A stretch of 64,000 bases of DNA from Tribonema minus (Eukaryota > Sar > Xanthophyceae > Tribonematales > Tribonemataceae). This document shows, one piece after another, positions 7,070 to 57,789 of this stretch. Below the pieces are notes generated by a model. That model saw nothing but the letters and a program-made list of their open reading frames with translations. It made no database searches and was not told the origin of the DNA. The position numbers and the translations under genes were made by a program. The DNA is taken from assembly GCA_017506865.1 (NCBI GenBank), contig JAFCMP010000525.1, forward strand, positions 1,302,001 to 1,366,000, in the 5' to 3' direction. How positions within the stretch are numbered: the stretch's first letter is position 1; each line of letters begins with the position of its first letter.

Positions 7070-10000
7070 ATGTGGGAAGAAAGGAAGGCGATGGAGGTGG
7101 ACCAGGAGGGGGAGGAGGTGAGAACATGTGTCCTTTGTCCAGCTTGTTCAACTTCTAGGACACATCGGCAATGTATCGATGGAAGCAACATAATGGTGGA
7201 GCGGCAATAGTTGCCGACAGGAGCGCATGCTGCACATATCTGATGAGCCGCACATCCGGAAGCTTGATTTGAAACCATGCCTGAGCCAAGGCAGTGAAGC
7301 GTCTTGAAGTTGGCACTTCTTGCTTTTTGCGCCATCCGGCCTTCATTGCACCTCTTCCTAGCCTGTGCATCTGCAAGCACCATGCCCTCTTCCACGTAGC
7401 CAGCACGCTCACGGAGGGCTTGACTATTGTGGCTGGAAGTACAACTCTGCGGAGAGCACAGCAAGCAACCAAATGCTTGCAGGGGATCAGTGTGGGTTGA
7501 CTGTTTGGTAATAAATCAGTATCCGCGTACGGCTGCGCAATCCACCTTCAACAGTGCCGACAGAGCGCACCGCTGTCGACGTCTGCGGCCAATGTGTCAG
7601 CTGCGCATGCCTGCACCAACACCAGCTGCCCCCGTTCACAGCGGCGATCCAATCACGCACCAGCATCACTTGCTCAGCGGCACCACTCCCGATGGTCAGC
7701 CTGCGACATTGCGCCGCCGCCGCCGCACGTGCTGCGCCGCACCATTCTTCACGACTTTTACTGTCTCATCCGCCATTTCATGGTGGCGACATGCGCATGT
7801 GCCCTGGCCGTCTCATCCGCCATCATCTCATGAAATCAACACGTATGCGCGCGCGCGCGCGTGCGCCGCAGGTCCCGGACGAGGGCCAGCTGCTGCGCGC
7901 GCGCCTGGAGGCGGCGGATAAGGTCGCGGAGACGGACGCGAAGGCGGCGCAGTCGCTGTATCGCGGCATACTGGACTACAAGGAAGGGGGGGGGGCGGAC
8001 GGGGGGGGGGGCGCGCACGAGGGCGTGCAGCGCGTGCGCGAGGAGAGCCTGTACCGGCTCGCCAAGACGTACGCGGACGAGCAGCAGTTCGACGAGGTCT
8101 CGGCGCTGCTGCGGAGCGCCAGCCCGTTCTTCAAGACGATTCCCAAGGTGCGCGCCGCATAGGCATGCATTTTGCGCCCTGCAAGGGGGTGGCCAGTGTG
8201 CGCGCGCGCCGCTGCCCCGCCGCCGCCGCCGCGGCAGGCAGGAAGCGCGCGGTGGTGGCATGCTGGCGCACAATCGGAAGTGCGGGTGGTCTGCCGCTTT
8301 GTGCTGCTGGTGCGTGGCGAGGACTTAGCACCTGCAACAATGCGTCCCGTTGGAGGCTCCACTTGTATATGCGTCCCACCAGATGCTCAACTTCAAGTGA
8401 CGTTAGCGCTGGGTCGCAAAGTAGCGTCGCCCTCCGCGCTGAAGCACTCTCACTCAAAGTGCATGTGTACACGCAGCAGCGCATCAGTTGAGCCTGCGGC
8501 GGCGCGGCGCAGCAGTGCGCCTTAGTCGCTGCCGTGTCGCCGACGCCAGCTTCGCGGATGCACCTGGTGCACTGAGCAGGCGCGAGCCGCCCGATGGAAA
8601 GCGCGGGGGGGGGCGGGGGGGGGGGGGGGGGGAGGGGGGGAGGAAGGGGAGGCGCTGCGTGCTCATACTGCACTTGTGCCGCACGGACTTTTTGTTGTGT
8701 GACTGCAGCTGGCAGTGTCTGGCGGTAGAGACGTCAGCTGAGCGCTGCCGCCTGCACGCCGCTTGAGCACATAGCGCACTTCAGCCGAGCACCGCGCCGC
8801 GTGGCCCGCTCCCATGATCCTCGCGTCCCCGCCGCTCAGTGCGCCGAGGCTGTGCGCATGGTGCTCTACGCCCCCGTGCCATGCGGCTCCACATGCTGGA
8901 GTCTTTGACCTGAACGCATGCGGTCTCAGACGAACACCCCCATTCACCGCACATCACTGTTGCGCCAATCAAAGGGGAGGCGCTGCGTGCTCATACTGCA
9001 CTTTTGCCGCACGGACTTTTTGTTGTGTGACTGCAGCTGGCAGTGTCTGGCGGTAGAGACGTCAGCTGAGCGCTGCCGCCTGCACGCCGCTTGAGCACAT
9101 AGCGCACTTCAGCCGAGCACCGCGCCGCGTGGCCCGCTCCCATGATCCTCGCGTCCCCGCCGCTCAGTGCGCCGAGGCTGTGCGCACGGTGCTCTACGCC
9201 CCCGTGCCATGCGGCTCCACATGCTGGAGTCTTTGACCTGAACGCACGCGGTCTCAGACGAACACCGCCATTCACCGCACATCACTGTTGCGCCAATCAA
9301 ACAGGCACGCCAAGCCAAGCAGCACGCACCGCCAAGGCTGTGCCCTCGGTGCTCGACGTCGTGCCCTTGCGACTCATTACGAGGGATAATCCAAACCCCC
9401 GCCGCTTGCAATCCCGACGAAAAGCGCCCGCAATGACAGTGATGATGACCATGCCTCTCTGCCACGCCGCGCGAGCAGATGCCGTGCCTTTGCGACTCAT
9501 CACGAGGAATGATCCAAACTCCCACCCGCCTGCCATCCCGACGAGCAGCACCTGCGATGACAATGACCATTTGCCGCGCCGCGCTTGCAGGCGCGGACCG
9601 CCAAGGCCGTGCGCACGGTGCTCGACATTGTGGGGCGCGCCGCGCCGACCGCGCTCGCGCTGCAGCTGACGCTGTGCGCGGAGGTCATTGACTGGTGCAA
9701 CGCGGAGAAGCGCACGTTCCTGCGCCAGCGCGTGCAGAGCCGCCTCGCGTCGCTGCTCTTCCAGCAGGGGCGCTACCAGGAGGCGGTCGCGCTCGTCAAC
9801 AAGTGAGTGCTACGTACTTCCGTTGACTCCTGATGTACCTCAGTATTGAAGTGTGTGTGACGCTCCTGCGCCAGCGCGCGCAGAGCCGCCTCGCGTCGCT
9901 GCTCTCTCAGCGGGGGCGCTACCAGGAGGCTGTCGCGCTCGTCAACAGGTGAGCGCTGCTGTCGGCTCTTCGCTCGTACCTCAATTGAAGCTACATAAGA

Positions 10001-13000
10001 GCGCGGCGGTCGGCTCTCAATGTACCTCAAGATTGAAGTTTATGCACAGCGCGTGGCCAAGTCGCCTGGCATCGCTGCTGTCCCAGCGGGGGCGCTACCA
10101 GGAGGTTGGCACATTCGTCAGCAGGTGAGCGCTGCGGTCGGCTCTCGCTGCGTACCTCAAGATTGAAGTTTATGCGCAAGGCTGCGCGTCCCAGAGAGTC
10201 GCCTCGCGTTGCTGCCATTTCAGTGGGGGAGCTACCAGGACGCGGTCGCGCTCGTCAACAGGTGCGCGGCGGTGCGTACCTCAAGATTGAAGTTGTTGCG
10301 CGGGGCAGCGCGTCGCAGAGAGTCGCCTCGCGTCGCTGCTGTTCCAGCAGCGGGCACTGCCCGGAGGCGGCTGCGCGCGTCAGCAGGCGAGACTTTGTAA
10401 TGGGCGCGCTTCAAAGTGCAGCTTTACTCATGCAGCATTTCTCAGCAAGTGGTGAGTGCTTCTGAAAGCACTGCGGCGCATGTGCCAGGAAGCGTAGAGC
10501 CGCCCTGCGCCGCTGCTGCTCCAGCTGGGGCAGCACCAGCAAGCGGACGCCGTCGCCCGCAGGTGGATGCGCAGTCGCTGCCGATACACTTTAATTGTGA
10601 AGTTCACTCGCCTTGCGCGCGCGCGTCCACGAGCTGCCTCCCTCGCGCCATCGCCGCTTCAGCTGAGAGACATCGCACATCAAGTACTTGAATTATGCAG
10701 CTGCCTCAGCACTCACGCCCGCCGCCGCCGCCTGAGACATAGCACTTCAAGTACTTGAAGTGCGCAGCTGCATCGGCGCTCACGCGCACCGCCGCCGCCG
10801 CCGCCGCCCCCCGCAGACTCCTGCGCGAGCTCAAGCGCCTGGACGACAAAGCGCTGCTGGTGGAGACGCACCTGATCGAGGCGCGCGTGCACCACGCGCT
10901 GAGGAACGTTCCCAAGGCGCGCGCCGCGCTCACCGCCGCGCGCACCGCCGGCAGCGCCATCTATATTGCGCCGCCCGTGCAGGTGCGCGCGCGCCGGCGT
11001 GACATGGAAGTACTTGTTTCCGGCGTTGTCATTGTGCCGCCGCCGGCGTCATTGATTCTCGGCGTACTCGAAATGACGCAGGCGACGGCGGGCCGCAAGC
11101 GGCCGCACGTGCGCTGCATGCACTCGCTCGAACTGCCGGCGTTTGTGGCTACGAGCAAACTCATGCACGTATGCCCGCCGGAGTCCGGGTAACGTTGAGT
11201 CTGAATAGCGCTGTCCGCGGCTCTCGTGCATGCTCGCCAGCGACAAAGCGCCGGACGTGCGCGGGCTGCGCTGGCGCGGCAGGCAGCCAAACCTCGTCAG
11301 AACAGTCATGCGTGGGGCTCCAGCGAGACCTCTTGTAGGCTCGCCGCGCTCGCTACACGAATGCGATCGTTGCGCTTTCGATCGCGCCTGGCAAGCAGAG
11401 CTGATTAGGATGAGCGAGTGGCTTGCTTGCTCACACTGCGGCCGTTGGAGGATCGCCAGTGATCTCACCCTAGGGTTGGGGTTAGATAGCTCGCCATACT
11501 CAAGTCACTGAAGTTCCTGCCTGACGGCAGCCTTTTGTATGCTCGTGACGCGATGCGCTCCTCCGCGTCTGTGCGCGCGCGCGGCAGGCAGAGCTGGACG
11601 AGATGAGCTACATAGGGTTAGGGTTACTAACCCTGCCCATGCTGATGTTGGCGGATCGCCACTGACCTCACCTTGTGTCCGATCCCCATCCTCAAGTCAC
11701 TCTAAGCAGTTTCTGCCTGCCTCACTGCGATCGTTTCGATGCTCTTGCACGCTAATGCGCTTCGCCGCGTTTGGCGTGCGCGCGCGGCAGGCGGAGCTGG
11801 ACGAGATGAGCGGCGTGCTGCACTGCGAGGAGTCGGACTACAAGACGGCGTTCTCGTACTTCCTGGAGGCGCATGAGGCTTTCGACGGCGCCGCGGACAA
11901 GGACAGGTGCGCATGGCTTTAAGCAGTTGATCGATGCCTCGGAGGCATGTCACATGTCGTAGAGGCACATGGGCATCCGATGGCGCAGGGGGCGCGGGGG
12001 TGGTGTGGGGGGGGGGGGGGGTAGCAGGCATCGGAGGTCCCGCCCATGAGCCTGTAAGCGACTCTGCAAGACGAGACTTCATCGGCCCCATGCGTTCCAC
12101 CGCGGGGCACCCAGTAGCATTGGGCCCATGAGCCTGCAAGCAGCTCTGCAAAACGTGAAGTGGTCGGTCCCATTGTGCCACAGTGATTCACTCGTCGATA
12201 CAAGACTTGATTGGCCCCGTGCATGTCACCGTGGGGCACTCAGCGGAACCCAGCATCGGGCGGGCGAGCGCGACGCCGCGGCGCTTGCTGACTCTGCGTG
12301 CGCTGCGTGCTCGTGGATGAAGCAGCGCTCCGCTGTGCATCCCGGTGACGCGGTGCATGTCCCACAGTACTTCAACATTGAAGTAGGAGGCCTTGCGGGT
12401 GACGTGCCCCGCACGTGCACGGCACACCGCTGCCTCAAATACGTGGCGCTCAGCACGGCGCTGCAGGGGCGGGCCACGCAGGCGGCAGCACGATTTCCAT
12501 GATGCCTGCCGCACAAGATTTCGCCATGCACATTCACATTGAGAGTCAGGATGCCACTATTTTCCAGAACCAACGCTCGGGTGCTCGCTTCACGCGCGAG
12601 GCGAGCGCTGCCTTGAGTACACGCTTTGCATCGATGTGCCGCAGCCGTTTCACTAACAACACATCGGGCTGGGGTACTTCAATACCAACACCCATGCCTC
12701 GAATGCTGAGAAGCTCGTACACAGAAGTCTTTGACTACTGTGAATATGGTGGCGCTGTTTGACTCGTGACCAATGGCTGCAGCAGCGGCGACCACGGTCA
12801 TCTGTGGAAGGCACCTGCGGCTAACCACACCTTGTCACCTAGAGCTGTACGATCTTTTGATTTGATTCCATGTATGTATTGCGGCTTACCACACCTTGTC
12901 ACCTGAAGCTCTACGTTCTTTTGAGTCCTTTCCATGTTTGCGTTGACTTCTTGATGCGCAGGGCGCGCCGTTGCCTCAAGTACATGATCATCAGCAAGGT

Positions 13001-16000
13001 GCTGCAAAAACGGGCCACGCAGGCGACAGACTGACTTGCATAATGCCCGCCGCACGAGACTTCGCCATGCACTCCCACCTTGAGAGTCAGGACGCCACTG
13101 AACCGACGCCGGCTGGTCTGTTGTGCTCGCCTCACGCGCGAGGAACAAATAAACAAAGAATGCCTCCTTATCTAAAAGTTCTTTTACATAGGTCTCGGCG
13201 ATGTCCCGCAGCCGTTTCACTCACAAAGCATCGGGCTGGGGCATGCATGTGTTGGCTTCTTGACGCGCAGGGCGCGGCGCTGCCTCAAGTACATGATCCT
13301 CAGCAAGGTGCTGCAGGGGCAGGCGGCGGAGGTGGTGGCCATCGTCGGCGGCAAGTACGGCCTCAAGTACGCGGGCGAGGACCTCGACGCGATGGCGCTC
13401 GTCGCGGCCGCCGCTAAGAACAGGTACGCATGTGAGACGCTCTTTCTTGCTTCGTAAAAGAAAGGCATGATTACACCTTCGTGCACGCGCGCGCATCCGT
13501 TGCGAGAGGACCTGGACGCCATGGCGCTCGCCGCGGCTGCCGCCGAGAACAGGCATGTATGTATGTATGTGTGTATGATTCTTTCTTTCCTTTACCGTAA
13601 GGGACAAGCATACGACCCTTGCGCATGCGCACATCTGCTGCAAGAGGGTCTGTATGCCATGGCGTTCGTCGCGGCCGCCACGAAGAACAGGTATGTATGC
13701 GTGCTTCTCTTTTCTTGCTTAAGACAGACATACCCTTACGCATCGCACGTCTGTCGCAAGATGCACTTATGTACTAGTCGATTTTCATCGTACGGGACAG
13801 GCATGACCCTTTCGCACGTACACATTTGTTGCGAGGGCCTGGCTGCCATGGCGCTCGTCGCGGGCGCCGCGAAGAACAGCTACATGCGTACGCGTGATTC
13901 TCTATCTGTTGCTTCGTACGGGACAGGCATGACCCTTGCTCCTGGTTGTGATTCTGACTCTTGTGACGGGCCGCTGGCAAACCTGGGCCTCCGACGGGTT
14001 ACTGGACAAGTCTGGATCTGACTCCTCTCTTGTGACAGAACGCTGGAGGACTCTGACTTTGACAGGTCGCTGAGTCTGACTCTGACTCATGTGGCGGGTC
14101 GCTGGCGGACTTTGCCTCGACCTCTCTCCCGATGCCCGCTGTCACGCAGCGAACCACATCAGCCTTGCGAGCCGAATTCGTCAGGTCACTGTGGTTGAGA
14201 GGTTTGAAGCTGACTCTGACTCCGACTCGTGTGGCAGGTCGCTGGAGGACTTTGACGCGGCGGTGGACAAGCACGGCGCGCGCCTGTCGGAGGACCTCCT
14301 CATCAAGCGCCACCTCGGCGTCCTGTACGACCAGCTGCTTGAGAGCAACCTCGCCAAAATCATCGAGCCGTTCAGCTGCGTGGAGATTGCGCACATTGCG
14401 GATCTCATTCACCTCCCCATTGACAAGGTATGTAGGTATGCCTGTGGCTATTACGTGCCGGCAGTAACACAGCCTCATACACCTCCCCATCGACAAGGTG
14501 TGTATGCACGCTGTGCCCGTTGCTGTTACGTGCCGGCATCTGCACGAGTCTGCACACACAGCGTTGACCATGTCCCAGCCCCCTCCCCCATAGGCAACTT
14601 TGGCATGTGCTCATTGCTGCTGGAGCTGCTGGCGGTCATGGCAGCTGTACCGATTGCTGACAAGGTGAACACGGGCCCACAGCTGTTGCATGCTGGCAGT
14701 TCCACGAGTTTGCTGGCAGTTACATCAGGTTGGGCTGAGCGTCAGTGGCAAGCCTACGGCGATAGACACGCACCTCTGACAGCGCGCCAGGTGGTGCTGG
14801 TCGTCTGGTGCCGTAGCCGTCGCGACTGACGCCGATATCTGGCGGTGCACAGCGATAGGCAGGCGAGCAGCAGCTGGCCACATAGCCGCAGCAATCCATT
14901 CAGTGCGTTTTCAGCATGCCAATAAAGTTATCTCCCACGCGGAAGCGTTTAATCTCGAGGCGGCTGCTGATGCGGGCGTGCTGACCTCGCCGAGCCGCAC
15001 ATCGGCATGAAAAATTGGCCAATGCCTGCAACAGCTGAAGTGTTCAACTTCACTTCAGAGCGTCACCTCTACCGTCCACCCACGTGTGTGGTGTGCGGGC
15101 CCCGCCGCCGGTGTCATCGCCGGTCTGCAATGCGCACTGGCAACGCTCTCTGCGACTCATCTCAGCGCCGCGCAGCTCATTCAGGGGTGGGGTACAGTCA
15201 GGCCTCAGCGCTGCTGCCGCTTGTGACGTGCCGGCAGCCGCCGCCTCAGCGCTGCTCCCCTGTCTACGCAGCACCAACAGCGGGGTAGGGTTTCAGGTGC
15301 GAACGCTGCTACTTTTCTGGTACGCGCGCGGCGGCGGCGGCGGAAACTGGCAGCAGGCTGACTTTTGGCGGCGGCGGCGGCCCGCAACATGCGCTCATGG
15401 ACAATGCATGCGTCTGCAACCAGGCATAGTGCTGCCGCAATTCAGAGCGTCGCAATGGTTGAAGTTGAGGTTGAGGGCCAGGACTGAGCGCTGCTGTTCT
15501 CTCTGTGTCCCGCGCGCGCGCCCACAGGTGGAGCGCAAGCTGAGCCAGATGATCCTCGACAGGAAGCTGCAGGGCATCCTGGACCAGGGCCGCGGGCAGC
15601 TCATCATCTACGAGGACAGCGCGTCAGACAAGGTGCGACCCCATTGCTTTTATTTATCTGAAGTTGGCAGTAGTTTACACCTGTCTTCGGTAGTCGCATG
15701 AGCTAGCTGCCTTGCGTTTCTCAAATTTTGCGAGCCACTAGGGCAGCCAGCTCATCATCTGCGAGGGCAGCGCTTCAGACAAGGTGGGACCATTGCTTTT
15801 ATCGGAATGAATTTGGCGGCAGTGGCTTACGACTGCTGCCTTTGGTATTATCATCCGGACGACATAAATGTATGACCAAATGGTTTTCGCTAGCCACCTG
15901 AGGCAGCTCATCGTCTACGCGGACACTGCGTCAGACAATGTGCGAGCATTGTACAGAGTGCATTTGGCAGCAGCGCATGACTATGTACTATCTCTGCTAG

Positions 16001-17159
16001 TCATGCGACCGTTGCAGAGCGCATTCGGTAGCGGCGTATGACCAGAGTAGTCCACTACTTTTTCTGGTCATACGGGGCAGCACACCGTACCAAGTAGATG
16101 TGGCAGTAGCTTGTGCGCGATGTTTTTCTCTGCTGGTTGCCGAAGGCGGCTCATTATATATGAGGACAGCGTGTCAGACAGGGTGCAGCTATTACAGAGT
16201 AAATCTGGCATTGACTTCATGACTACCTCACTTTTCTTATCATGTTGGGCAGCTCATCATCCAGGTTGAATTCTGCAGTAGCCTATAGCCATTTTCGTTG
16301 CCAGTCATATCGTGCAGCTGATCGTTTATGAAAACAGTGTGTCCACCAAGGTACACAATACATGACGATATCAGGGCTGAGGGACTAGCTCGGGCAGTAT
16401 GAAGAGATCATCTGTATTCGCGGTAAGCAACTGCATTGCAGCATTTATGAGCACCCAGCTCGCTCTCATACTGGTTGCAGAGCGGTACTGGTATTTGTCT
16501 GATGCTATGAATGAATACTGTAGTGAAAAATTGTATTACGAAGAACAACAAGTTTTACAAAGTGGGTGTGAATTGATATCCACAACTCACAAGGAGTCAA
16601 GCAGCTCACGACAACCTTGTGTCAGCGAAGGTGCAGACAAGATGGTCCACGTCCGCAATGGCGGCCGCATTGCGGCACATTCTTGTTACCGCCATGCATA
16701 CTGATGCCAGCATGCAAATGCCAGTTTGCATGCTAGTATCAGGGTGCCATCACCATTGTCATTGCTGGTTGCTTCAAGCAGGTCAGCACCTAAGGAGGAT
16801 AGAGTATGCACGCAAGTGCGACGAGCTGCTGCCGTGCTGCCGCATGAAGCAGCCAGATGAGTTCACGCACAGGAGCGGAGCTGCTTGGCGACCCTCCGCC
16901 CTTTCCTCACACCTCCTCACCCAGCTGCCACTGTGCAACACGTGTTCACGTGCCAATGCCGCAATCGTAGTCATTGCGCTGTGCTTCCGCGCCAATGGCG
17001 CAATCGCGTCTGTTCCGCTGTGCTTACGCGCCAACGCCGCAATTGTGCTCGCTGCGTCGTCCCGTGCAGGCATTTGCGGATGGCATTGAAGTTATTGACA
17101 ACCTGGGGACGGTCGTCACCAGCCTCTACCGACGGGCGCAGCGGCATCTGGTGCACTGA
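7070..17159 (+). CDS. PSMD11: 26S proteasome lid subunit RPN6 / PSMD11
   Basis: Non-ATPase regulatory-particle subunit that clamps the lid onto the 20S core and ATPase ring. Nine exons agree in phase: 7070-7117, 7872-8147, 9591-9802, 10817-10982, 11791-11906, 13271-13423, 14238-14427, 15528-15632 and 17070-17159, about 451 residues (human about 422). Family signatures along the protein are [116 protein letters not shown] and [19 protein letters not shown] (PCI winged-helix), with C-terminal VTSLYRRAQ. The N-terminal half forms alpha-solenoid repeats and the PCI domain is in the C-terminal third. The start ([16 protein letters not shown]) is chosen because this short exon joins exon 2 in phase 0. 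Exon 2 carries a Gly-rich insert (GGGADGGGG) where the family is variable. Introns are large and full of junction-copy arrays. The gene converges on the GGNBP2-like gene. Confidence 0.96.
8645..9300. repeat. 328 bp near-identical tandem duplication in RPN6 intron 2
   Basis: Copy one is about 8645-8972 and copy two about 8973-9300. They differ at only a handful of positions, for example CTTGTGCC versus CTTTTGCC and GCGCATGG versus GCGCACGG. Such high identity implies a recent duplication. A long oligo-G tract (8607-8640) lies just before copy one. Confidence 0.93.
9355..9600. repeat. Acceptor-side tandem copies before RPN6 exon 3
   Basis: A segment at about 9355-9475 (TGCGACTCATTACGAGG through a CCGCGCGAGCAG end) is repeated at about 9481-9590, where the second copy ends in the genuine acceptor CGCGCTTGCAG of exon 3. 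The two differ by scattered substitutions and small indels. Confidence 0.75.
9724..10562 (+). repeat. Donor-side exon-copy array in RPN6 intron 3
   Basis: The last ~80 bases of exon 3 plus its donor are followed by five degenerate tandem copies ending at about 9948, 10124, 10261, 10386 and 10562 (true exon end 9802). Each copy retains words such as GAGTCGCCTCGCGT, GCTACCAGGA and CTCGTCAACAG, and each is followed by GTGAGC, GTGCGC, GCGAGA or GTGGAT. Spacers share the line GTACCTCAAGATTGAAGTT (near 10023, 10153 and 10275). Spacing is 125-176 bases. The copies carry changes that disrupt the reading frame, so they look like pseudoexons. Confidence 0.92.
10742..10763. repeat. 22 bp perfect palindrome
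   Basis: The core ACTTCAAGTACTTGAAGT reads the same on both strands and extends by GC on each side. It lies 54 bases before RPN6 exon 4 and is built from the CTTCAA/TTGAAG word that recurs in non-coding DNA across the window. Confidence 0.9.
11225..11816 (+). repeat. Acceptor-side exon-copy array in RPN6 intron 4
   Basis: The junction GCGGCAG|GCGGAGCTGGACG of exon 5 (11791) is preceded by related copies near 11386-11412 (GGCAAGCAGAGCTGATTAGG) and 11578-11606 (GCGGCAGGCAGAGCTGGACG), and more weakly near 11225-11290. The upstream parts (GATGCGCT, TTCGATGCTC) also repeat. The array contains a telomere-like TAGGGTTAGGGTTA at 11613-11626. Confidence 0.8.
12417..13320 (+). repeat. Acceptor-side exon-copy array in RPN6 intron 5
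   Basis: The start of exon 6 (13271 on) has degenerate copies at about 12417-12484 and 12958-13027, both with the block CGGGCCACGCAGGCG in place of the true exon sequence. Segments after them also match (12497-12562 and 13040-13104, sharing TTCGCCATGCAC and GAGAGTCAGG). Spacing between the two copies is about 541 bases, which fits a larger unit. Confidence 0.8.
12742..12868 (+). repeat. Dispersed repeat, copy 1 (RPN6 intron 5)
   Basis: This stretch matches 51974-52100 in an intron of the MuiA-like gene, in the same orientation. Shared words include GCTGCAGCAGCGGCGACCAC, TGTGGAAGGCA or TGGTGGAAGGCA, CTTGTCACCT and TACGATCTTTTGATT. By eye identity is clearly high but not exact. The tail (CTTGTCACCT to TCTTTTGA) is repeated once more immediately downstream at about 12890-12928. 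Confidence 0.85.
13378..14257 (+). repeat. Donor- and acceptor-side copies in RPN6 intron 6
   Basis: Donor side: the end of exon 6 (GAGGACCTCGACGCGATGG through AAGAACAG, 13423) recurs with ends at about 13552, 13690 and 13879. Acceptor side: the start of exon 7 (GTCGCTGGAGGACTTTG, 14238) has degenerate forerunners at about 13935-13985, 14013-14063 and 14064-14122, each with a GACTCTGACTC-like lead. Thus one intron is made almost wholly of copies of both of its borders. Confidence 0.9.
14411..14670 (+). repeat. Donor-side copies in RPN6 intron 7
   Basis: CACCTCCCCATTGACAAG at the end of exon 7 (14427) is followed by GTATGT. It recurs as CACCTCCCCATCGACAAG followed by GTGTGT near 14481-14504, and more weakly as CGATTGCTGACAAG followed by GTGAAC near 14650-14670. 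The spacer word TACGTGCCGGCA is also duplicated. Confidence 0.8.
15598..16350 (+). repeat. Donor-side copies in RPN6 intron 8
   Basis: The end of exon 8 (CAGCTCATCATCTACGAGGAC to GACAAG, 15632) recurs with ends near 15783, 15939, 16182, 16265 (partial) and 16350. Copies decay with distance: the first retains GGCAGCGCTTCAGACAAGGTG, later ones keep only scattered words. Confidence 0.85.
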
Positions 17160-27089: not shown

Positions 27090-30000
27090 ATGGCGCCGCG
27101 ATCTCTGCTGCCGCTGTGCGCGGTCCTGTGCTGCGTGGCTGCATTCGTGCCCTCGAGCACTCACATCAGCCAGAGCTCCTTCGCCGTCCGGAGAGCCGCC
27201 CACGCACCAACATGCCTGGCGCCTTCAACCACTCAGCAAAGACGAGCAGCAGTGGTTCCGCGTATGATGTTCGACCAGCTGACTGAAAAGATGGCTGGAA
27301 TAGGGGAGATGCTGCAGGGGAAGAAGAAGATCACCGCGGCCAGCGTGGAAAGAGCGCTGGGGGAGGTCAAAAGGGCTCTCCTGGATGCGGATGTCAACCT
27401 GAAGGTGCTGTGCGAAACATGCACACAGACTTTTGTCTCAGCCCGCTTGTTGTGCCAACAAGGGGTCCACAGACGCATGTGCAGGCCACTTGCGGCGTGC
27501 TTTCGTGTTGGCATGCGTGCTTGCGTTGTGGTCGTTCTGACGCACTTACCCTCTCTGCATGATTATCACTTCGTGACAGGTGACCAATGGCTTGATCGAG
27601 TCCGTCAGAAATCAGGCGGTGGGAAAGCTGCTGATTGAGGGCGTGACACCCGACCAACAATTTGTAAAAATCATGTACGACGAGCTTGTCAAGGTCATGG
27701 GCTCGCAGCAGGCACCCCTGGCGCGCAGGTGAGACCTAGTTACTCTCGGAGCTTGTTCATTGTTATGCGCCAACGGATTGCAAAGTACATTTGCTAACCC
27801 GTCATACTGCTCCAGATGCTTCTCTGTATATGCGTCCAGCAAGCAATGTGCGAGCAACACTTCCTGAGCTACGGCCCGCATAGGTGCTGCTTGTACCGTC
27901 ATGTGTTCACCATGTTTGTCAGACAAATAAACTCCTCATGACGGCCTGTCCTACATGCACAAATGCTCTAACACGACCGTGCAACCATCGAATTGATTTT
28001 CACTTTGCTGCCTCATGAATCGCCTGCCGCGCACGCGCCGCATGCAGCACCAAGGAGGGCGAGCCGGTGGTAATACTGCTGGCGGGACTGCAGGGCGCGG
28101 GCAAAACGACGGCGGCCGCCAAGCTGGCCAAGTTCTGTCAGGAGCGCGGCGCGGGTGTGGCGCCGGCGGAGGAGCCCCAGCCGGAGATGAAAGAAGGTGA
28201 GCGTGCACTTTCAACAACAAAAATATTGCAGTCTTGAAGTTACGTGGCAGCGCCAGAAGAATCGAGTCTGCCCTGCGGCAATTCTGTAGCTGCATTGCAG
28301 GAGTTTGTCACGTAGGTGGTGGGAATGGGGAGCGCCAATGGCGCAGGCTAGGGGAGGTGCTGACGCAAAGGGAGGTCCAGACGGTGATGCACTTGAAGTT
28401 GTGGTTGCGGTTGTCGCAGATGCGGGCGCATCGCTGCGGTAGCATGCACACGTGGGTAGGGTTCTACATGGCAATGCATGTGTCCAGTCAACCGCAGTTT
28501 GCCTATTGCTTCGGAGCGCAGTTTGCCCATTGTATCGGTGAAAGCAACCGCCGAGGCAACTGTTGAAGTTGACCAGCTACGAACGCCCAAAGGCACAAAA
28601 TACCAGCGGTGTGCAGACGGCGTGTTACTCCGTCAGGGCACACCCTGAACCTCCCTCACTTGAAACCTAATTGCAACGATAGTAAGTTTCACCGGCCAAA
28701 TGCGGACCTGCCGCAAACACAGAAAAGCCCAATCGTCTTCGTCGCAAAGCACACGCTTTTTGCAACAGCGGCTCATGTGCACGTTAACGCTCAGCCGCCG
28801 AACTGACACGCACCGCCTCCTGAACCGGCCATGCGCGGCGCGCGCGCGCACCGCCCCCCCTCAGGTGAGGTCTGGACCCCCCCGCAGCGCGAGGGCCCCC
28901 CGGGCAAGGTCCTCCTCGTCGCAGGCGACGTCTACCGGCCCGCGGCCATAGAGCAGCTGCAGCGGCTCGGCGAGAGGATCGGCGCGGAGGTCTTTGCTCC
29001 GGGGCGCGACGTGGACCCGGTCGACATTGCGCGTGGCGGCGTGCAATACGCGCGTGACGGCGGCTTCGACGCCGTCATCGTCGACACGGCGGGACGGCAG
29101 GTGAGCGCTGCTGCCGCCGCTGCTGCTGCGGCCGCGCGCGCCGCTGCTGCTGCGGCGTCGTGCAGGGGGGGGGGGCGTCGTGCTGCGTCGCGTGAGCGCG
29201 CCGCTGCTGCGCCACAATGCTGTTTTACTAGAGCGCTGGTATGTCAATTGGGGGCGGTAGGCTGGCGCTGCTGCGCTTGGGCGCTGCTGTACCTGAGCGT
29301 TGTTGTATCGTGTGGCGGACAGCTGAGCGCTGCTGTATCTGGGGTGCGCGCTGCTGTAGCTGGGGGGCGAGTGCTGCTGTTCCTGAGCGCTGCTGCAGCG
29401 CGCCGGGCCGGCGATTTGGCGCTGCTGCTTCAGAGCGCTGCTGAGCCTGAGCACTGTAGCTGAGCACTGCACGCATGCGAGTGATGCCGCAGCTGAGGGC
29501 GGGCAGTTCCGCACGCAGTGAGGGAGTGAGTACCAGTAGCAGTGTGCGACTGCAGACTTTGCGCACAAGGGAAAGCGCTTTTGTGCAATAAGGCAAATTT
29601 GCACGTGTGCAAAGAGCGTGCTGCAGCGTGCTGGATGCAGTTGATCGGGTGCAATCATCCACCGATCCGTATTGCAATCGATCGCACTAAAAGAAAAGTC
29701 TGCGAGTACACCCGGTGCAACAGCTCTACCTACTGCGGGGCGTGCAGCCGCCGCCGACTCGCGTCGTCGCAACCGACGCAACCCTCACCCTGCACCTTGC
29801 TCGCCCGTTTCGCCGTGTAACTGCCGCGCCCGCCAGGTCACTTGACTAGCGCCTCATGAACAAGCTGTCAACTCGCACCGTTGCGACCGACGCACTGCTC
29901 GCCCGTTTCGCTGTGTAACTGCCGCGCCCGCCAGGTCATTGATGAGAAGCTCATGGATGAGCTCGTCAAGGTCAAGGGCGCGTGCGAGCCGGACGAGGTG

Positions 30001-33000
30001 CTGCTGGTGGTGGACGCCATGACGGGGCAGGAGGCGGCGACGCTCACGGCGGCGTTCAACGAGCGCGTGGGGATCACGGGCGCGATCCTGACTAAGGTGC
30101 GCGCGCATTGTCTTGCGGAGCAGCTCAAGATGGCGCTGTATGCGCGTGCATTGTCTTGCGTAGCAGCTCAAGACTGCGCTCTGTACCGTATCTGAAGGGC
30201 GCAGGGCGGCTTGCAGCGATGCTCGTCTTGGTGTTTTGCGGCAATGCTCATTGCGGCGTTCAACGAGCGCGTGGGGATCACGGGCGCGAGTCTGACCGAG
30301 GTAAGCCTCGCGTAGCTTTTGATGTCGCTCAATGGCATCAACGCTCCCTGCGGCAGTCAGCGAGCGCGTGGGAAATACAGGCGCAGCGCCGAGAAAGTGC
30401 GTCGCGCGCAGCAGCTGGGTGCCCAAGGGCGCAGGGCAGCGGCAGCGATGCTCAGCGTAACCTTAGGCATCGGGAACGCTCACCGCTGTGTTTGATGCGT
30501 GCGTGGGATCTCGATGGCCGCGCGTCGTGCGCAGCAGCTCGAGACATTCATTCGCTGCCGCGCTCGAAGGGCGCGATATGGGAGGCCGCGATGAGCGTCG
30601 CCGCCAAACGCTGAGACGAGCACCGCTGACCTTGGCGCGTTGTGCGCAGCAGCTCGAGGTGCATGGATGGTCGTCGTTCTGAAGGCCGCAGGACGGGAGG
30701 CAGCGACGCTTGGGGTAATGCTATGTAGGGCAGCCGAGGCGCCAGAATGCAGCGCGATGAGAGGGGCGGTGGCGGGCGGGCGCTGAGCCATGTTGCGCGG
30801 ACCGTTTTGGAGGTCGAGAGAGTTGGCAGGGCTCTGCGGACATTATGACATCGAACGTCGGCGATCAAGGACGCGAGACAGGTGGAACTGCTTGTGACGG
30901 GTTACTTCGCGCATGCACGTCTCTATGTGCCAATGTTGCTGTGCGTTTTTGCTCCGCTGCAGCTGGACGGCGACTCGCGCGGCGGCAGCGCGCTCAGCGT
31001 GCAGGGCGTGTCCGGGCGGCCCATCAAGTTTGTGGGCGTGGGCGAGCGCATCGACGACCTCGAGCCCTTCTACCCCGACCGCATGGCGAGCCGCATCCTC
31101 GGCATGGGCGACATCGTGAGCTTCGTGGAGAAGGCGCAGAAGCAGGTGAGCGCTGCTGCCGCGTGAATGCGCTGCGCATTGGGGTCCGCAAGTGCACGCG
31201 CGCGCGCATGCGTGTGTGCTGGTGGATAGGCCGCTCGTCGCGTGTGTGCCCAGGTTTGCGAGTGAGTCGCGTGTGTCACGAGGCGGGTGGAGCAGGCGCA
31301 GAAGCAGGTAAGCGCTGTCGCCACCGCAAGTTTCCGCGCGCGCGCGCACGTGCGAGTTGTAACCCTAACCCTAAGTGCGCGTCGTGCGGCGGACAGGGCG
31401 CCTGGCACATTCCCTCCGTGTGCGCGACCTTGCGACAGGTGGTTGGTGGAGCCGGAGAAGCGGGTGACCACTGCTGCCACGTGGATGCGCTGCGCGCCGG
31501 CATCCGCAAGCGCGCGCGCGCGCATGTGTGTGTGTATGCTGGTGGATGGGTCGCGCCGGGCGCGCCTTTCCCCATGTGTGTGAGTCACGTGTGTCGCGTG
31601 GCTGAATGGCGACACAGTGTCGCGTGGTGAAACGGTGCGGAGGCGCGCGGAAGTCAGGCACGCGCTGCAGTCGGGATGAGTGTGACAGCATGAAAAACCG
31701 CGCACGTGCTCGCGTGCATGTGCAAGTTGCGTGCTTGTCATTGGGTGGACAGGCTGCGGGGCGCATTCCCTCTGTGCGTGCGCAATCGCCTTCGTCATGC
31801 GGTGAAGTTGTGGCGGGGCGCGTTCTGTTGAACTCGAGGCGCTGTCGGACCGCGCGCAGGCACGGCAGGCTGCGGATTTGCCATGTCGGGAAAGGAGTTT
31901 GAGCATTGCTGCAATCAGAGTACATTGCGTTTGCACCTGTGCTCGGCTACTTGAACTAGTTCAAATGGGCAGGTAATTACTTCAACTGATATGTACGCGG
32001 ACGAGCTCTTTCTGCCCCTGGAACAGGTGACTTTGTGGCCTGCGTTTCGCCGCACACGCGCACATCAACGAAGCAACGGTTGCCATCAAATGTTTGGGGC
32101 GCGCTGCTGTTTGCTGGCGGCGCCAACTGCCCTTCAGTGCTGGCGCGCGGGGGCAGGCGGTGTCCGTACATGCTGCCGACAGTGTTGAAGTCAAATAGCG
32201 CGCACGTCAGACGCGCAACCGGTGGCGTGAGTCTGGCAGTCTGGTCCTCGGGTGTAGGTGATAGGCAGCGAGGGCCCACAACGCCCGTCATTGCCTGAAG
32301 GGTTGTGGTGCCGGCCGAGCGTGCAGTCGCTCACCGATGTACATGCGATGTCCGTAGACGCTGAGTCACGCGCTCTGTCGTCTGCGACGCACGCGTGCGC
32401 GGCGAATTCTGCAGAAAATGCTTTAATGCTTTGCAGCACGACTCGATAGCAGAAGGGCTGGACGAGCCAAGGCGTATCAGCTCTTGTAGATCATCGACAC
32501 CCGGAGAATCCAGAGTGCAAATCTCAAGAAGCAATACCGGACACTCGCCAAGACTGACTTGCGGGCGCGGCAGCCCATCAAAACTACATCATGTGCTTGC
32601 ACTGCTCTTGCTGCAACTCATCAAAACTACATCACGGTACTGCGCTGCTCCTGCTGCAACTTATCAAAATTGCATCACGGTGTTGCGCTGCTCCTGCTGC
32701 GGCTCATCAAAACTGTGTCTTGTGCTGCGCTGCTCCTGCTGCAATTTATCAAAAGTATACAACGTGCTGCGCTGCTCCTGCTGCAACTTATATCAACACT
32801 ACATCAATGTGCTGCGCAGGTCTCGGAGGCGGAGATGGCGCAGCTGTCTCAGAAGATGATGGACGCGACGTTTGACTTCAACGACTTTCTGGAGCAGTCC
32901 AAGGTGGTGCGCAACATGGGCAGCATGGCCAACGTCGCCAAGATGATCCCCGGAATGGCAGGTGCGCGCTGCTTTACTTTCCGAGTCATCCCAAGCTGTC

Positions 33001-35644
33001 CGATCAATCACCTCTAGATACGTATGAAGACATTATACCAAGTAGCTGAAGTACACTTGGAATGTACCAACAGCAAACCAAACTTTGTCACCACATGAAG
33101 TTATGATTCTAGGGGTGACGAGGCTTCGCGCCGTGATGCCGTGGAGCGCGTCACAGCTTGAAGCTCGTTGAAGCTCTTGAAGTTGACATGTGCGATCGCT
33201 CGCCAGATAAAGTTGGTTTGCCACCTCCCATATATTGGGTCGTGAACAACAAAAGCCACGTCACGGCTGATTGTGCTCGCGTTCACGTGCCGCTCGCGGC
33301 GGCGGCACTGCAATCAACACTTGCGCAAGACCGCCGATGATGCTGGTCCGTACTGCACTAAACTAGAACCCCCCTCCGCCCCCCCCCCGAAGGGCTAGGG
33401 TTAGGGTTTGTGGCATGGGCCGCACAGTCGCAATGGTGCAGTGCTCCAACATTGGCGTATGATCACGCCCGAAACATGCTGGGCTTGTGGTTGACGCTGT
33501 CCAATGGCATGGCCACGATGCGCTGCTGTTATTACCCGCTGCTGTTACATCTTTGAGTGTCTAGCCACGTTGCCATCTGCACTTCTGCAGTCCTCGCTGC
33601 CTCGCCGTTGATCTACCCTACAGACGGGTCGTCAGCACTGATGACCATGCTGGCCAAATAAATGCGCTTCTTGCACTTGGGTGCTGCTGCCGAAGGCGCA
33701 GTCGGCATTGGCGGACGTTGCCATCCCCACCCATCCTTTGTATCCGTCACTCAGGCTCGTCAGCTTCATTTATGATGAATCGCCATACGCTAAGCCACAG
33801 GTAAACTGAACCACAGCAACACTTGATAGTGTTGAAACACGCAAAAACTCGGTAGGTCAGAAACCGACACCACTTGCCCAAGCATTGCCCCCCCCCCCCC
33901 CCTCCGCCTCTCGCACCAGGCAAGCTGAGCCAGAAGCAGATCGACGACACGGAGCGCCGAGCATGCGGACCTCTTCATCTCGCTCATTTCATCTCGCTCA
34001 TGCTGCCCTAGTATTGCCCCCCCCTCCCCCCCCCCCCCCCCCTCACCTTCCACCGTGAACCCCCCCCCCCTGCACCCCCTCCCATTCTGCCCCCCTGTAC
34101 CAGGCAAGCTGAGCCAGCAGCAGATGGACGACGCGGAGGACCGCGCCGAGCGCGCGGACCTCTTCATCTCCCTCATGCTGCCAGAGGAGCGCACCAACCC
34201 GGACCTGCTCATCCGCGACGCGGCCGCGCTGCAGCGGCAGCGCCGCATCGCCAAGGCCGCGCAGGTGCGGCCGCAGGACGTCGCGGCGTTCATCAGCGAC
34301 TTCCAGACGATGCGGACCATGATGAGCAGGTGGGTGGGGCGCGCCGCTGTACAGAGGGTAGGTGTGCTCACCGGTGTGTTGCGTACCCTGCCTCGCAGCA
34401 GCGTGTAGTGCGTTCGCGCTGCAGCGGCGGCGGCGCATCGCCAAGGCGGCGCAGGTGCGGCCGCAGGACGTCGCGGCGTTCATCGGCGAGTTCCAGACGA
34501 TGCGCACCATGATGAGCAGGTGCGGTGGGGTGCGGCGCGCGGCGGCTGCAGTAGGCGTCGAAGTTAGAGGGTACGCTCGCAAGTGTGTGTGTGTGACCTG
34601 GCTCGCCGCATTGGGTATGCTCACGCGTATGCGGGGGCGCACACGCGCGCGGCTGCAGTACAGAGGGTAGGCATGCTTGCCAGTGTGTATACGTACCGTG
34701 GCTCGCCGCAGTGTGCATGCTCACCTGTGTCCGGTCGGGTCTGGGAGGTTTGGGCGGCTGCGGCATGCATGAGGCTCTTATGCGAGGCCGCGAGCGCTGC
34801 TGTTTTTGAGTGGTTTGGTTGTTGACGAATGTAAGAGTTGAGGCTCTGGGACTGGTGTTGCAGTCAGTGTCTGCAAGACTGGGCTCATGCAACTCTGTAC
34901 AACAGGGAACAGGATTGAGGCTTTGGTTGCATGCTTATTTCATTTTTCAAGGCAATGGCTGTGGTTGTTGCTCTGAATCCAGCTCCTGCGCGTGGGTGAG
35001 GCCCCCCATTTTGTTGCTTTCTGCGCAAGGCAGATGACGGTACTCTCTGATGCACTGACATGCAGACATTGTGCTTTGCTGATCTGCGTTTCACTCAAGG
35101 CATAGCCAAGTTTTTCCAGACACCCATGCGCAACCCATAAATTACACAGCGCTGCTCGTGCGCGTGCACGATTACAACGCCGCTGTGAGTTGATTGTTGC
35201 ACGCCGGTCACACGCGCTGGGGCATGGCGCAACATGCACCCACCCACAGTCACAACCAGCGAAGGCACCCAGGCCAGTATTTATCGACAATAAAATTCCC
35301 TTGTCAACAAATTGCTGCAGAATTTCAGTTGTTTGATTGATTTCGCATTACAGTCCCACTGCCCAGCCCGTCGTGCTGCTGATGTTCTTTCAAGCCCTCC
35401 CCTCCTCCCCATTGTTCTCACTTGAAGCCCCCTAACTCCGCCCCCCTTTTCACGGCGCAGAATGAGCAAGCGCATGGCGCCGGGCGGCGACATGGGGGGC
35501 GCGCCGGGGGGCGGCGCACCAGGCCCCGGAGGCCCCCCCTCAGAGGAGGACATGCTGGCCATGGGCAACCGGCAGCAGCGGCGGCGCGCCGCCAAGACGG
35601 GCAAGAAGCCGGCGGGCCCAAGCAAGGGGTTCGGCGCCAAGTAG
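27090..35644 (+). CDS. SRP54: Plastid signal recognition particle 54 kDa protein (cpSRP54/FfhC)
   Basis: GTPase that targets thylakoid membrane proteins inside the plastid. Nine exons agree in phase: 27090-27404, 27580-27728, 28048-28196, 28865-29100, 29935-30096, 30963-31145, 32820-32961, 34104-34329 and 35461-35644, about 581 residues. The N-terminus has a hydrophobic core [14 protein letters not shown] then a Ser/Thr/Arg/Ala-rich stretch ending RRAAVVPRM: a bipartite ER-plus-transit presequence with the Phe typical of complex red plastids. The mature N domain starts [20 protein letters not shown]. GTPase motifs: GLQGAGKTT (about 168-176), [22 protein letters not shown] (split by an intron after TK) and GVGER. 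The M domain ([29 protein letters not shown]) follows. The tail ends [13 protein letters not shown]. The C-terminal exon carries a Gly/Pro-rich linker. An insert of about 28 residues rich in Pro/Glu sits between the P-loop helix and [14 protein letters not shown], and is itself interrupted by an intron. Confidence 0.96.
29780..29936 (+). repeat. Acceptor-side copy before SRP54 exon 5
   Basis: GCTCGCCCGTTTCGCCGTGTAACTGCCGCGCCCGCCAG and the following GTCA occur at about 29799-29840 and again at 29898-29938, where the second is the true acceptor of exon 5. The first copy diverges after GTCA. The preceding CGACGCA words are duplicated too. Confidence 0.85.
30050..30400 (+). repeat. Donor-side copies in SRP54 intron 5
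   Basis: GCGTTCAACGAGCGCGTGGG at the end of exon 5 (30096) is copied almost exactly at 30256-30300 and followed by GTAAGC. A third weaker copy (AGCGAGCGCGTGGGAAATAC) lies at about 30356-30398. Spacing is about 204 then about 100 bases. Confidence 0.88.
31126..31660 (+). repeat. Donor-side copies in SRP54 intron 6
   Basis: GGAGAAGGCGCAGAAGCAG with a GTGAGC donor (exon end 31145) recurs as GGAGCAGGCGCAGAAGCAG with GTAAGC (31307) and GGAGCCGGAGAAGCGG with GTGACC (31463), and more weakly near 31640. Spacing is 162 and 156 bases. Intron spacer words (GATGCGCTGCGC, CATGTGTGTGT and GGTGGAT) repeat as well, so the unit covers exon end plus intron. Confidence 0.88.
31361..31375. repeat. Interstitial telomere-like motif
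   Basis: AACCCTAACCCTAAG in SRP54 intron 6, two and a half units of CCCTAA. Similar short tracts on one or other strand lie at 11613-11626, 33394-33408, 61452-61464 and 63543-63557, all in introns. Confidence 0.85.
32590..32819 (+). repeat. About 44 bp tandem repeat abutting SRP54 exon 7 acceptor
   Basis: Five to six units of the form GCTGCTCCTGCTGCAACTTA plus TCAAAACTACATCACGGT run directly into the acceptor GTGCTGCGCAG of exon 7. Every unit carries a GTGCTGCGCTG or TACTGCGCTG version of the same segment, so the array is built from the 3' splice-site region. Confidence 0.9.
33889..34150 (+). repeat. Acceptor-side pseudoexon before SRP54 exon 8
   Basis: An oligo-C tract, CACCAGGCAAGCTGAGCCAG and then AAGCAGATCGACGACACGGAG appear at about 33889-33955. 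The true exon 8 start (oligo-C, ACCAGGCAAGCTGAGCCAG, CAGCAGATGGACGACGCGGAGG) is at 34050-34140. The GCGGACCTCTTCATCTC block is also shared. The upstream copy loses the frame soon after the junction. Confidence 0.9.
34226..34519 (+). repeat. Donor-side pseudoexon of about 105 bases in SRP54 intron 8
   Basis: The last ~105 bases of exon 8 (about 34226-34329) are repeated at 34416-34519 with few changes, including GCCAAGGCCGCGCAGGTGCG, GACGTCGCGGCGTTCATC and ACCATGATGAGCAG, followed by GTGCGG in place of GTGGGT. This is the longest and best preserved junction copy in the window and retains an open frame. Confidence 0.95.
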
Positions 35645-39400: not shown

Positions 39401-42400
39401 GGCGCGCTGGCGGCGAGCACGGCGCGCACTCCGCACACGGCAGAACGGCGACGGCGGCGCGGCGCAGCACCCCCCCTCACCTGCGTCATGCAGTAGCCCG
39501 CTGGCGCGCTGGCGGCGAGCGCCGACGTCAGCGCGGCGCGCCGCAGCTGCGCCCCGGCGGCGAGCGCGCCCCACGCGAGCGCGCACAGGCGCGCGCGCAG
39601 CGCCGGGTCGGGCTCGCCGGCGGCAGCGCGGCGCCCGTCCGCCGCCGCCGCCGCCGCCGCCGCCGCAGCGTCGAGGCGCGTCCTGAGCAGCTTGGCGAGG
39701 GGGCGCGTGCCCAGCGCTCCGCGGCCGAGCACTGCGCAGCGCGCGAGGGCCCCGTAGCCGTACTGCCGCACCTGCGCGGCGCGGCGCAGTGCGCATGGCG
39801 CGGCGGCGGCGGCGGCGGCGGCAGTGTTGTGTAGGGCCCTTGAGGTGTGCGGTTCATGAGGGTGGTAGGTTTTTTGTGGTATGTGTACTAAGGACGGGGG
39901 GGGGGGGGTGCACAGCGCCCCGCAGCTGGAGCATTAGACACTGGTGCAGAGCACGGTAGCTGGCTGGCGGAGCCGCGTCGCCGCGCCTGACGAGAAGCAA
40001 GGAGCATGACGATCCCTCATACCGAGCACATACTTTCAAATTTGATGCAAGCATAGTGATCCCTCATACCGAGCACATCTTAAAAGATCTGTGCATGGGC
40101 GTCTGTGATTTGACGCAAGAGCGGTGCGCACGTACGCAAACCAGTTGCACGGCTGGGGGTGACAGGCCCTCCTCTATGGGCAGACACGTGTACTCAATCA
40201 CACAGCAACACCCCCTGGTTCACGCAGGTGCACCTTCGCTGCTTGATGCCTGCGCGGCGCAATGCAGTGAGTTCAATGTTATTCACACAAAGCTGGTCAT
40301 GGCCGCTGCAGTATGCAGCTCGTGACGCCGAGCAACCCGGAGCGTAATAGTGGTGAGCAGCAGCACAGCCAGCGGTCAAGCAAAACATCCATTGTTTGCC
40401 ACTATGACACCGGTGCAATGCTTTGTGCTGCCTGTCGCAAACATGTCTGATGGATGTCTGCCAGTCTTGCAATGGCCAAAGCTCAAATGAGAGGTTGCTG
40501 AGAGGTGCTGACGTGCGGCGAGAGAGCGAGAGGCGCTGCTGCTGTACTCGGTCACAGAGCCTTGTGTGCATACATTCATGTGTATATATGTATACATATA
40601 TGAAGGAAGATCAGGCCCGAGCTCATCGTTCTGCAGGAGCAAATCAGTTGCAAAAGTGTGCACATTCCCGGATGGTCCAAAACATTTATGATCGAACGGA
40701 AATAAAATTCATTGGTGTTGGCCGTTTGTCTTCTTCATACATGCATGTGCCCATGTGTCAACTCAAGAAGCAGCAACGATGCGTCGTTGAATCGACTCCT
40801 GTGACAACAGCGGTAATTGCACGATTTGAAGCTCACAAGACCCTTTCTTAAGACAAACAAAAGCCACCGACACGATGTTTGCTCACACATGATGTGCCTT
40901 ACCTGCCAGTGATTGTGGCTGCAGCATGTGCTCACCACCTGCACCATTGAGGCAAAGGAAAGTGAGATGAGCGCATTTGCAATAGTGACCAGAGTTTACA
41001 GCCTGCAGTGTCGCAGCACCACAGCATTACAGGTCATGAGGTGGATCGATGTACTGCGAGAATATTCTTGCAGAAATCAGAATCAACACGAGCTCACTTG
41101 AGCGTACAGGATTACTTGCAAACCTTTACATGAATAGCTGCAGATGAAACTATCATGAAAGTGGCATTGGATATCAGCAAACACCATCATGAAGCACAAC
41201 ACCGTGAGTACAGTTGCTGAAGTGCATCGCTTCCTCATGACACAGGCATGCTATCCGACGCACGAGCGCACGCCGGCAACGCCATTGGCATCAATCTTCA
41301 ACTTCAACATGTCAACTTCAACATGCACGAATGAAAACAGCGCTCACCGCCGCGACGCGGGCGTAGTCGCGCCGCGCGTCCACCAGCGCCTGCGTACGCC
41401 GGGCGATGCAATCGCCATCAATCTTCATCTTCAACATGCGACAATAAACACAGCGCTCACCGCCGCGACGTGGGCGTAGTCGCGCCGCGCCTCCACCAGC
41501 CTCTGCGTGGTCTCAGCGCTCAGCGTCGCAGCAACGCTCAGGCGTTCGTCGGCGATGTTGAGGTACAGGAACTGCGCCAGCAGCTCGCCGTGCGTGCCGG
41601 TGAACAGGGTGTCTGCAAAGGGGAAGGGCGCAGTAAGGGTGGGTGGGAAGGGGGGGGAGGCTGAAGTTAGGGTGTGAAGGTTGAGGCACGGGGGGGGGGG
41701 GCGGGGGGCGTAGTGATGATGGATGGGGCTGAGGCAAAGGCTGTTCGTCACTTGAAGTGCATTTGCCTACACGGTGTAGCACACCAAGAGATGGCATGGT
41801 TTTCGCCGCCGCAGACAAACGAGTGGCAACGAAGGCGCAGATGCAGCATCGATGAGCTCACGTTTCACGCCCCAATTAAGATGACATCTAGCGCTTGTAC
41901 AGCAGCTTATCAGCGAAATGACTGTTATATTCACAAATTCCAGCACTCTCCAACCTCATGTCAACTCATGCGGTGCCGTGCATGGCATCTGTTTTAGGAT
42001 TCCATATGCTTTGACCAATGTACATCATTCTTCAAATTAGTTTTGATGCATTATCTGCAGCAAATTCCACAGTTGTGTCATTTAGATAAAAAATGGGCCC
42101 GTGACAAAATTGTAACTAAATCTAAAGAAAGTTGTAGAAGTATTGAACTGAAAGGTCATGCTGATAAAGTTTAAAAAACACAAAGTCTATCATCTCAACC
42201 CGCTGCAGACGAGGCTTTAGGAGGGAACCTTAGATGTTGGACGTAGAATATAGGGTCCGTACAAACACATTTCAATATTGAAAAAAGAATTGATTACTTC
42301 AAAGGCAGGTGTGTCAGACGGCTATTTGAAAGTTCTGTGAAGCTACTGTTACGATGAGGGTTGGTGCCCACGCATTACACAGCGCGCGTTCACGCAGCCT

Positions 42401-56938: not shown

Positions 56939-57789
56939 GCAGTGCTCGGTGTATATGTTCTGCGCCGACCCTTCTCAGGCAGCTTCTGTGTGCTTCAAGT
57001 ATTTTGTGTTCCTTGCTGATTAGTTGTGGCGAGAGAGGGATTCCATGGGTCATTCTGCCCCCAGGGTGCCTTTCAGGTGCTTTGATGATGCTGTAAGTTG
57101 GTGTTTTGTCTCCTACACAGCCATTGCACATGACCTCTTCCAGCCTGAAGTTCCAGGCATGCTGCGATGCAGCAGTAGGTGTCTGATGATGTAGTGGTGC
57201 AGTGAGCCAGTGAGCTCTTCAAGTTGATCTTGAGTTTGCAGTGGAAGTGTTTCCCACCAGTTGTACAGTACCTCCACAGAGATGTTCAGTGCTGCGCCCG
57301 CATGCTCAATGTTGGCTGAAAGTGTCTGAAAAGAACGCATGCTCAATGTTGGCTAAAAGTGTCTGAAATGCAAGTACATCACAGGTCCCATTTCAGCATT
57401 CTGGCACACAGAGTACTTCCCAACAGCGCATCTTGTCCAGGGGCGGCCTTTTGGCTTTTACTTCACTACAGAGAGCAACTTAAATGCAACAAGCATTATG
57501 CGTGCTTGGTGACGACGGATTTGTGTTTGTTTCTCGTTGGGTGTGTGCCTGCCTTGCGCTTGTGCAACACACCATTACGTTTAGCTTGGGGCTGCTCCAC
57601 TTGGTGGTGTGGTCTTTTGGTGCTGTATGTATAAAGCAATACTTGGTTGGCTGTTGCACGTGATGTCAAATTGTTCACAGCATGCTTTTTTTAAATCTCG
57701 CAGTGCTCGTAGAATGCCGGCCCAGGGTCATCAGCCACGATGCACCAGGGGTAGAGGCACGACCTGTGGGCAGGCCCTGTGCTGAATTG

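Follow-up and report, generated by a model that had tools for sequence, protein, structure and literature searches.

Tandem copies of splice junctions in long introns of Tribonema minus point to intron growth by local duplication

Results

The window analysed here is a 64-kb stretch of Tribonema minus DNA of eukaryotic nuclear type (GC 52–69%). RPN6 was recognised by its homology to proteasome Rpn6 (tblastn matches and PDB hits), and its exons were traced with Arabidopsis RPN6 as the guide protein, a sequence that was checked through those matches and hits. The SRP54 gene is of the chloroplast type: its frames match Ffh and plant cpSRP54 structures, and its spliced model gives one continuous protein reading. 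The N-terminus looks like a signal peptide followed by a transit peptide with an A-F motif, an arrangement that would place the gene among algae with a secondary red plastid. The window also holds a MuiA-like gene containing DUF4139, a minus-strand gene with the RNA-binding domain of poly(A) polymerase (PAP), and a minus-strand open reading frame, provisionally called a helical protein, whose exons have no family match. A scan of genome contigs for RPN6 returned two bacterial loci only, with short or weak matches and no eukaryotic relatives, and viral contigs scanned for RPN6, the MuiA-like gene and SRP54 gave no match. Exon borders were fixed by homology, frame and GT-AG, and the main tests drew on the 21 introns of RPN6, SRP54 and the MuiA-like gene, the three genes whose exon models are backed by homology. 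The MuiA-like model is partial: its introns 1, 3, 4 and 5 are introns 3, 5, 6 and 7 of the preliminary description, whose numbering is kept below.

RPN6 intron 3 (9803–10816) is the type case. Exon 3 (9591–9802, plus strand; Rpn6 homology, frame and GT-AG) contributes its last ~89 bases to a repeated unit, and the whole array (9714–10598, plus strand) consists of the exon end, its donor and a spacer, followed by five decayed copies. The preliminary description, made from the letters of the DNA, had reported five degenerate copies of the exon end with its donor, and all five were located. These copies of ~90 bases plus donor span 9860–10570 and are 70–92% identical to exon 3. They occupy, on the plus strand and in order from the exon, 9860–9957 (82/89 exon bases identical), 10038–10136 (67/86), 10168–10282 (73/87), 10292–10391 (75/87) and 10481–10570 (58/82). 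The shared spacer line that had been noted is also present (GTACCTCAAGATTGAAGT). Two details needed adjustment: the unit begins at 9714, ten bases before the 9724 given earlier, and the unit lengths of 146, 182, 148, 111 and 185 make the measured range of 111–185 slightly wider than the 125–176 first proposed.

Donor-side repeats of the same kind recur on the plus strand in all three modelled genes. RPN6 has an array with the exon 6 end in three copies in intron 6 (13375–13932), a duplicate in intron 7 (14404–14538; 22/24 exon bases) and an array in intron 8 (15583–16352), while SRP54 has copies in introns 5 (30034–30548) and 6 (31125–31673) and a duplicate in intron 8 (34225–34538; 102/110 exon bases). 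The MuiA-like gene contains a duplicate in intron 3 (48369–48634; 53/57), four exon-end copies in intron 5 (49675–50499; 92–97%), two copies in intron 6 (50957–51286) and four in intron 7 (52400–52897; exon part 88–100%). When exon sequence alone was used as the probe, 11 exon tails beat all 100 dinucleotide shuffles, and these are exactly the eleven donor-side introns listed for these genes in the preliminary description. Two donor-side introns had also been assigned to the helical protein. The repeats are real (at 41.3 and 39.4 kb in the minus-strand frame, the former a duplicate at 41266–41508), but the exon call depends on open frame and codon bias, with open frame as its sole basis at 41266–41508.

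Acceptor-side copies lie upstream of exon heads. In RPN6 (plus strand) they derive from exon 5 in intron 4 (11367–11811; near copy 20/21, far 36/46), from exon 6 in intron 5 (12413–13335; near 53/58, far 50/65 and 33/45) and from exon 7 in intron 6 (13942–14119), and exon 6 is flanked by both acceptor-side and donor-side arrays. SRP54 (plus strand) has a duplicate in intron 4 (29798–29969) and one of the exon 8 head in intron 7 (33892–34176; 62/68). On the minus strand, one PAP intron carries a ~119-bp array whose units include CAG|GTGGAC (62412–62877), and the intron upstream of it a decayed exon-head copy with a telomere-like tract no more than ~6 bases behind it (63518–63610). The acceptor-side list of the preliminary description therefore stands for RPN6 introns 2, 4, 5 and 6 (intron 2 being the weakest), SRP54 introns 4 and 7 and the two PAP introns, but not for SRP54 intron 6, where a 43-bp array is intronic and essentially without exon sequence. 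A case absent from that list was added in MuiA-like intron 6 (52130–52287, plus strand), where a copy of the next exon's head lies at 52130–52159 (27/28). The pattern, announced for seven unrelated genes, was verified in four to five. More than half of the introns examined hold junction-derived copies.

Self-BLAST of the window gave 62 direct repeats, 60 of them pairing sequences no more than 850 bases apart, and self-comparison gave one local inverted pair. Probes of at most 100 bases taken from exon tails or heads were scored against the 21 introns. The preliminary description had offered as its own test whether exons resemble their own introns more than other introns, and within the window they do: the own intron ranks first for 12/21 tails (p 3e-11) and 8/21 heads (p 3e-6), with 1 expected by chance in each case. 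The copying is also one-sided. Tails exceeded Z 5 against the intron on their proper side in 10/18 cases and against the wrong-side intron of the same exon in 1/18, the single exception being a CCG-repeat tail; for heads the figures were 6/18 and 0/18. Save for that one repetitive tail, copies of an exon's tail occur solely in the intron that follows it, and copies of its head solely in the intron that precedes it. Local base composition is ruled out as the cause of the matches because the same exon end fails against the intron on its other side.

Each unit comprises ~20–110 exon bases followed by the splice site and a spacer of intron sequence. Unit boundaries fall 20–110 bases inside the exon and are not tied to the splice site, and unit lengths are not multiples of three. 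The copy-to-copy spacing (median 154, IQR 127–165) is suggestive of nucleosome-sized units. Junction homology in little-decayed founder duplicates amounts to 0–2 bases, and in some of them unrelated filler separates the copies. Short telomere-like tracts were seen at two copy ends.

On the donor side, similarity to the exon falls with distance (concordant minus discordant pairs, 26 of 43; p 0.0006 by permutation). Acceptor-side copies follow the mirrored order in RPN6 introns 4, 5 and 6, where the copy closest to the exon matches it best, but not in RPN6 intron 2. Differences from the exon that are common to most copies fall at third codon positions in 11/17 cases (p 0.009) and are therefore mainly silent changes of the exon itself. 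Differences private to single copies show no significant bias (47/118 at third positions, p 0.14), so the copies decay without coding constraint. An exon under constraint beside neutrally decaying copies is thus supported, as are the earlier claim that copies decay into pseudoexons and outward growth of the arrays from the exon. The donor GT is kept in most copies and lost in several, and selection on copy donors was rejected, GT retention being about what background identity predicts. Between intronic copies, the exon-derived part is 77% alike and the spacer 63%, the spacer alignments being noisy. Serial copying from a slow-changing exon beside a fast-changing spacer would predict such a difference, which conversion or noisy alignment may also fit.

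Are borders duplicated more often than other sequence? Defining a junction-spanning cluster as a local repeat cluster with at least 8 exon bases, 16/24 clusters in the three genes qualify, 14 labelled by script and two ambiguous ones counted by hand (SRP54 30034–30302 and MuiA-like 52130–52287) because they contain 63 and 28 exon bases, respectively. A placement null puts this share at 0.23, rising to 0.37 when junction pairs are allowed to remain visible for twice the time. Uniform duplication was also simulated forward in time on random sequence, with slowly changing exons and with substitutions, deletions and indels but no homology-driven expansion. At matched cluster number these gave a junction share of 0.34–0.37 (sd ~0.09), with 0/330 replicates reaching 0.66 or more; at lower cluster numbers, 1/75 replicates reached 0.67. 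Multi-hit junction arrays number 8, against simulated means of 1.4–3.6, and 0/150 replicates reach 8. A uniform, memoryless model thus fails on both the junction excess and the multi-copy arrays, which indicates a missing step or biased detection.

Discussion

We consider it probable that introns in this DNA grow because sequence across the exon-intron border is duplicated locally again and again, the copies then decaying into pseudoexons. The preliminary description had proposed local duplication of a junction-spanning unit, and that proposal is supported within this one 64-kb window. According to this model, a short stretch, typically ~75–200 bases, spanning the border would duplicate locally and repeatedly. 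If the stretch holds an exon end and its donor, the copy would land in the intron behind the real donor; if it holds an acceptor and an exon head, the copy would land before the real acceptor. Duplication inside an exon would usually be harmful and duplication inside an intron neutral, whereas duplication across the junction would leave the message unchanged, and so be nearly neutral, while the exon-proximal site stays in use. The exon-proximal splice sites are probably the ones used. The exon itself would stay under coding selection, and each new copy would become a decaying pseudoexon pushed outward by the next duplication. Decay would be ordered with distance because each new junction duplicate arises adjoining the exon. 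The junction-spanning copies, their one-sidedness and the polarity of their decay are plain in the DNA, as are the constraint on the exons and its absence from the copies; that each copy is a new duplication from the exon, not a product of conversion, is what we infer from them. At the DNA level we favour replication template switching or double-strand-break repair as the probable cause, and the 0–2 bases of homology, the filler and the one inverted copy suit these better than unequal crossing-over.

The copies might instead have a function, either as exons used alternatively or mutually exclusively or as decoy splice sites under selection. Many copies do retain a donor GT, and in SRP54 intron 8 the copy combines its 102/110 matching exon bases with an open frame. 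Most copies, however, are partial exons without a partner splice site, and with private changes lacking third-position bias, unit lengths that are not multiples of three and donors lost at about the background rate, we judge such functions improbable. A stronger alternative, though still rather unlikely in our view, is that the exon serves as template for gene conversion or repair that refreshes old tandem copies and adds no new ones. This would account for the better preservation of the exon part than of the spacer, and for the MuiA-like copy at 50137, whose exon stretch is longer than those of neighbouring copies; the fall in similarity with distance is more simply explained by serial addition. 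That the repeats are introner-like mobile elements is scarcely credible. Algae commonly carry introners, and the window contains one dispersed pair (12739–12862 and 51966–52089, 86%), but each unit matches its own exon and intron only, exon tails find no match in other introns, and nearly all direct repeats are local. An assembly artefact is very improbable as well: two arrays are 98.8–100% identical (8644–9301 and 58034–58249), yet copies that differ by 3–30% with ordered decay in many introns are not a misassembly product.

Duplication across junctions may or may not be targeted to them. Untargeted micro-duplication could occur everywhere at a high rate, with junction cases merely easier to see against an undecayed exon copy, which would be a rival to targeting and not to junction-spanning duplication itself. 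Interior and intergenic arrays exist (8644–9301, 10632–10799 and 58034–58249) and junction-anchored pairs remain detectable for longer, and we give this reading appreciable weight, if short of an even chance, since both the share of junction clusters and the number of multi-hit arrays exceed the simulated values. Homology can add copies once a tandem exists but does not explain the junction excess, which calls for targeting or for a detection bias outside the model. The excess of junction arrays over the simulation hints at targeting. More tentatively still, in this lineage double-strand-break repair or replication repair may repeatedly duplicate sequence at exon-intron borders, so that borders are hot spots and introns grow from their junctions; this is suggested because junction arrays exceed the uniform model and because the telomere-like tracts at two copy ends resemble repair scars.

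How introns grow long without transposons is poorly understood. With the exon as a slow-changing reference, the age and order of duplications can be worked out, and intron growth becomes readable as a record. If the pattern extends across the genome, it would provide a direct measure of duplication rate, of splice-site choice after duplication and of pseudoexon birth, and a way to examine whether DNA breaks are drawn to splice junctions.

Several known systems resemble the one described here. Intronic minisatellites share the head-to-tail tandem units (seen here by TRF and self-BLAST, with some copies split by unrelated filler), but here the first unit is a functional exon end and decay is ordered outward; the array is not homogenised and its anchor is fixed. 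Tandem exon duplication also leaves exon-derived copies in the neighbouring intron, but mutually exclusive exons are whole exons with both splice sites and coding constraint, whereas the copies here hold part of an exon, carry one splice site and show no sign of coding constraint. The tandem genomic duplication model of intron gain, reportedly due to Rogers and to Hellsten, likewise involves local copying of exonic sequence with splice signals that leaves the protein unaltered, and a tandem duplicate of exonic sequence beside an intron is present here. That model makes a new intron from the GT and AG of two copies, whereas here an existing intron is lengthened by units that straddle one junction, a pattern shown by the majority of the introns examined. 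For these introns, an origin by AGGT duplication was rejected on the absence of head/tail homology: the 40-nt scores of intron heads against downstream exon heads, and of intron tails against upstream exon tails, were as a set not above those of other introns.

For intron gain by tandem duplication, potato offers isolated examples (PMC4974935), Drosophila a few (PMC2891723), and fission yeast two introns in which a 24-nt exon unit resembling the flanking exon is tandemly repeated (PMC3629103). Introners and introner-like elements of Micromonas, Aureococcus and dinoflagellates also build intron sequence from repeats in algae, but they are dispersed mobile families (PMC9860276), whereas here each repeat is private to one junction, so the contrast drawn earlier between dispersed introners and a local process is upheld. 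The system had further been called undescribed. Local tandem duplication is in fact known from the single intron-gain cases, but open-licence papers yielded no account of introns being lengthened systematically by duplication across their junctions. The underlying process was thus previously known from a few isolated cases; here its apparent traces are found in more than half of the introns.

Other repeats and short motifs in the window

The exact telomere-like tract CCCTAACCCTA occurs five times in the window, at 11613, 31363, 33396, 61453 and 63544, against an expectation of 0.00 from shuffled sequence. Two of these five tracts, at 11613 in intron 4 of RPN6 and at 63544 in an intron of the minus-strand poly(A) polymerase gene, each lie about 6 bases or less from the end of an exon-head copy (a duplicated piece of the downstream exon's start together with its acceptor). 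These two tracts are possibly scars of break repair.

The window also holds near-identical direct duplicates. A recently duplicated 73-base segment is present twice at 98.6% identity (57789-57861 and 57924-57996); 62 unrelated bases separate its copies, so it did not arise as a plain head-to-tail duplication. Inside RPN6 intron 2, two adjoining 328-base copies (8644-9301) are 98.8% identical, reflecting either a very recent duplication or a matter of assembly. A local inverted repeat (46749-46927 and 47143-47318) matches at 94% over 179 bases, with its arms 215 bases apart.

Further sequences lie at or near splice sites or copies of them. A 43-base tandem array of 5.6 copies (32576-32817) abuts the acceptor of SRP54 exon 7 and is essentially free of exon sequence. 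The extended donor word AGGTGAGCGCTG (9947, 10123, 29099, 31144 and 20736) is shared by donors, or by donor copies, in different genes. Finally, one dispersed element occurs both in an RPN6 intron (12739-12862) and in an intron of the MuiA-like gene (51966-52089); its two copies share 86% identity across 124 bases, and each lies a short way upstream of an acceptor or acceptor copy.
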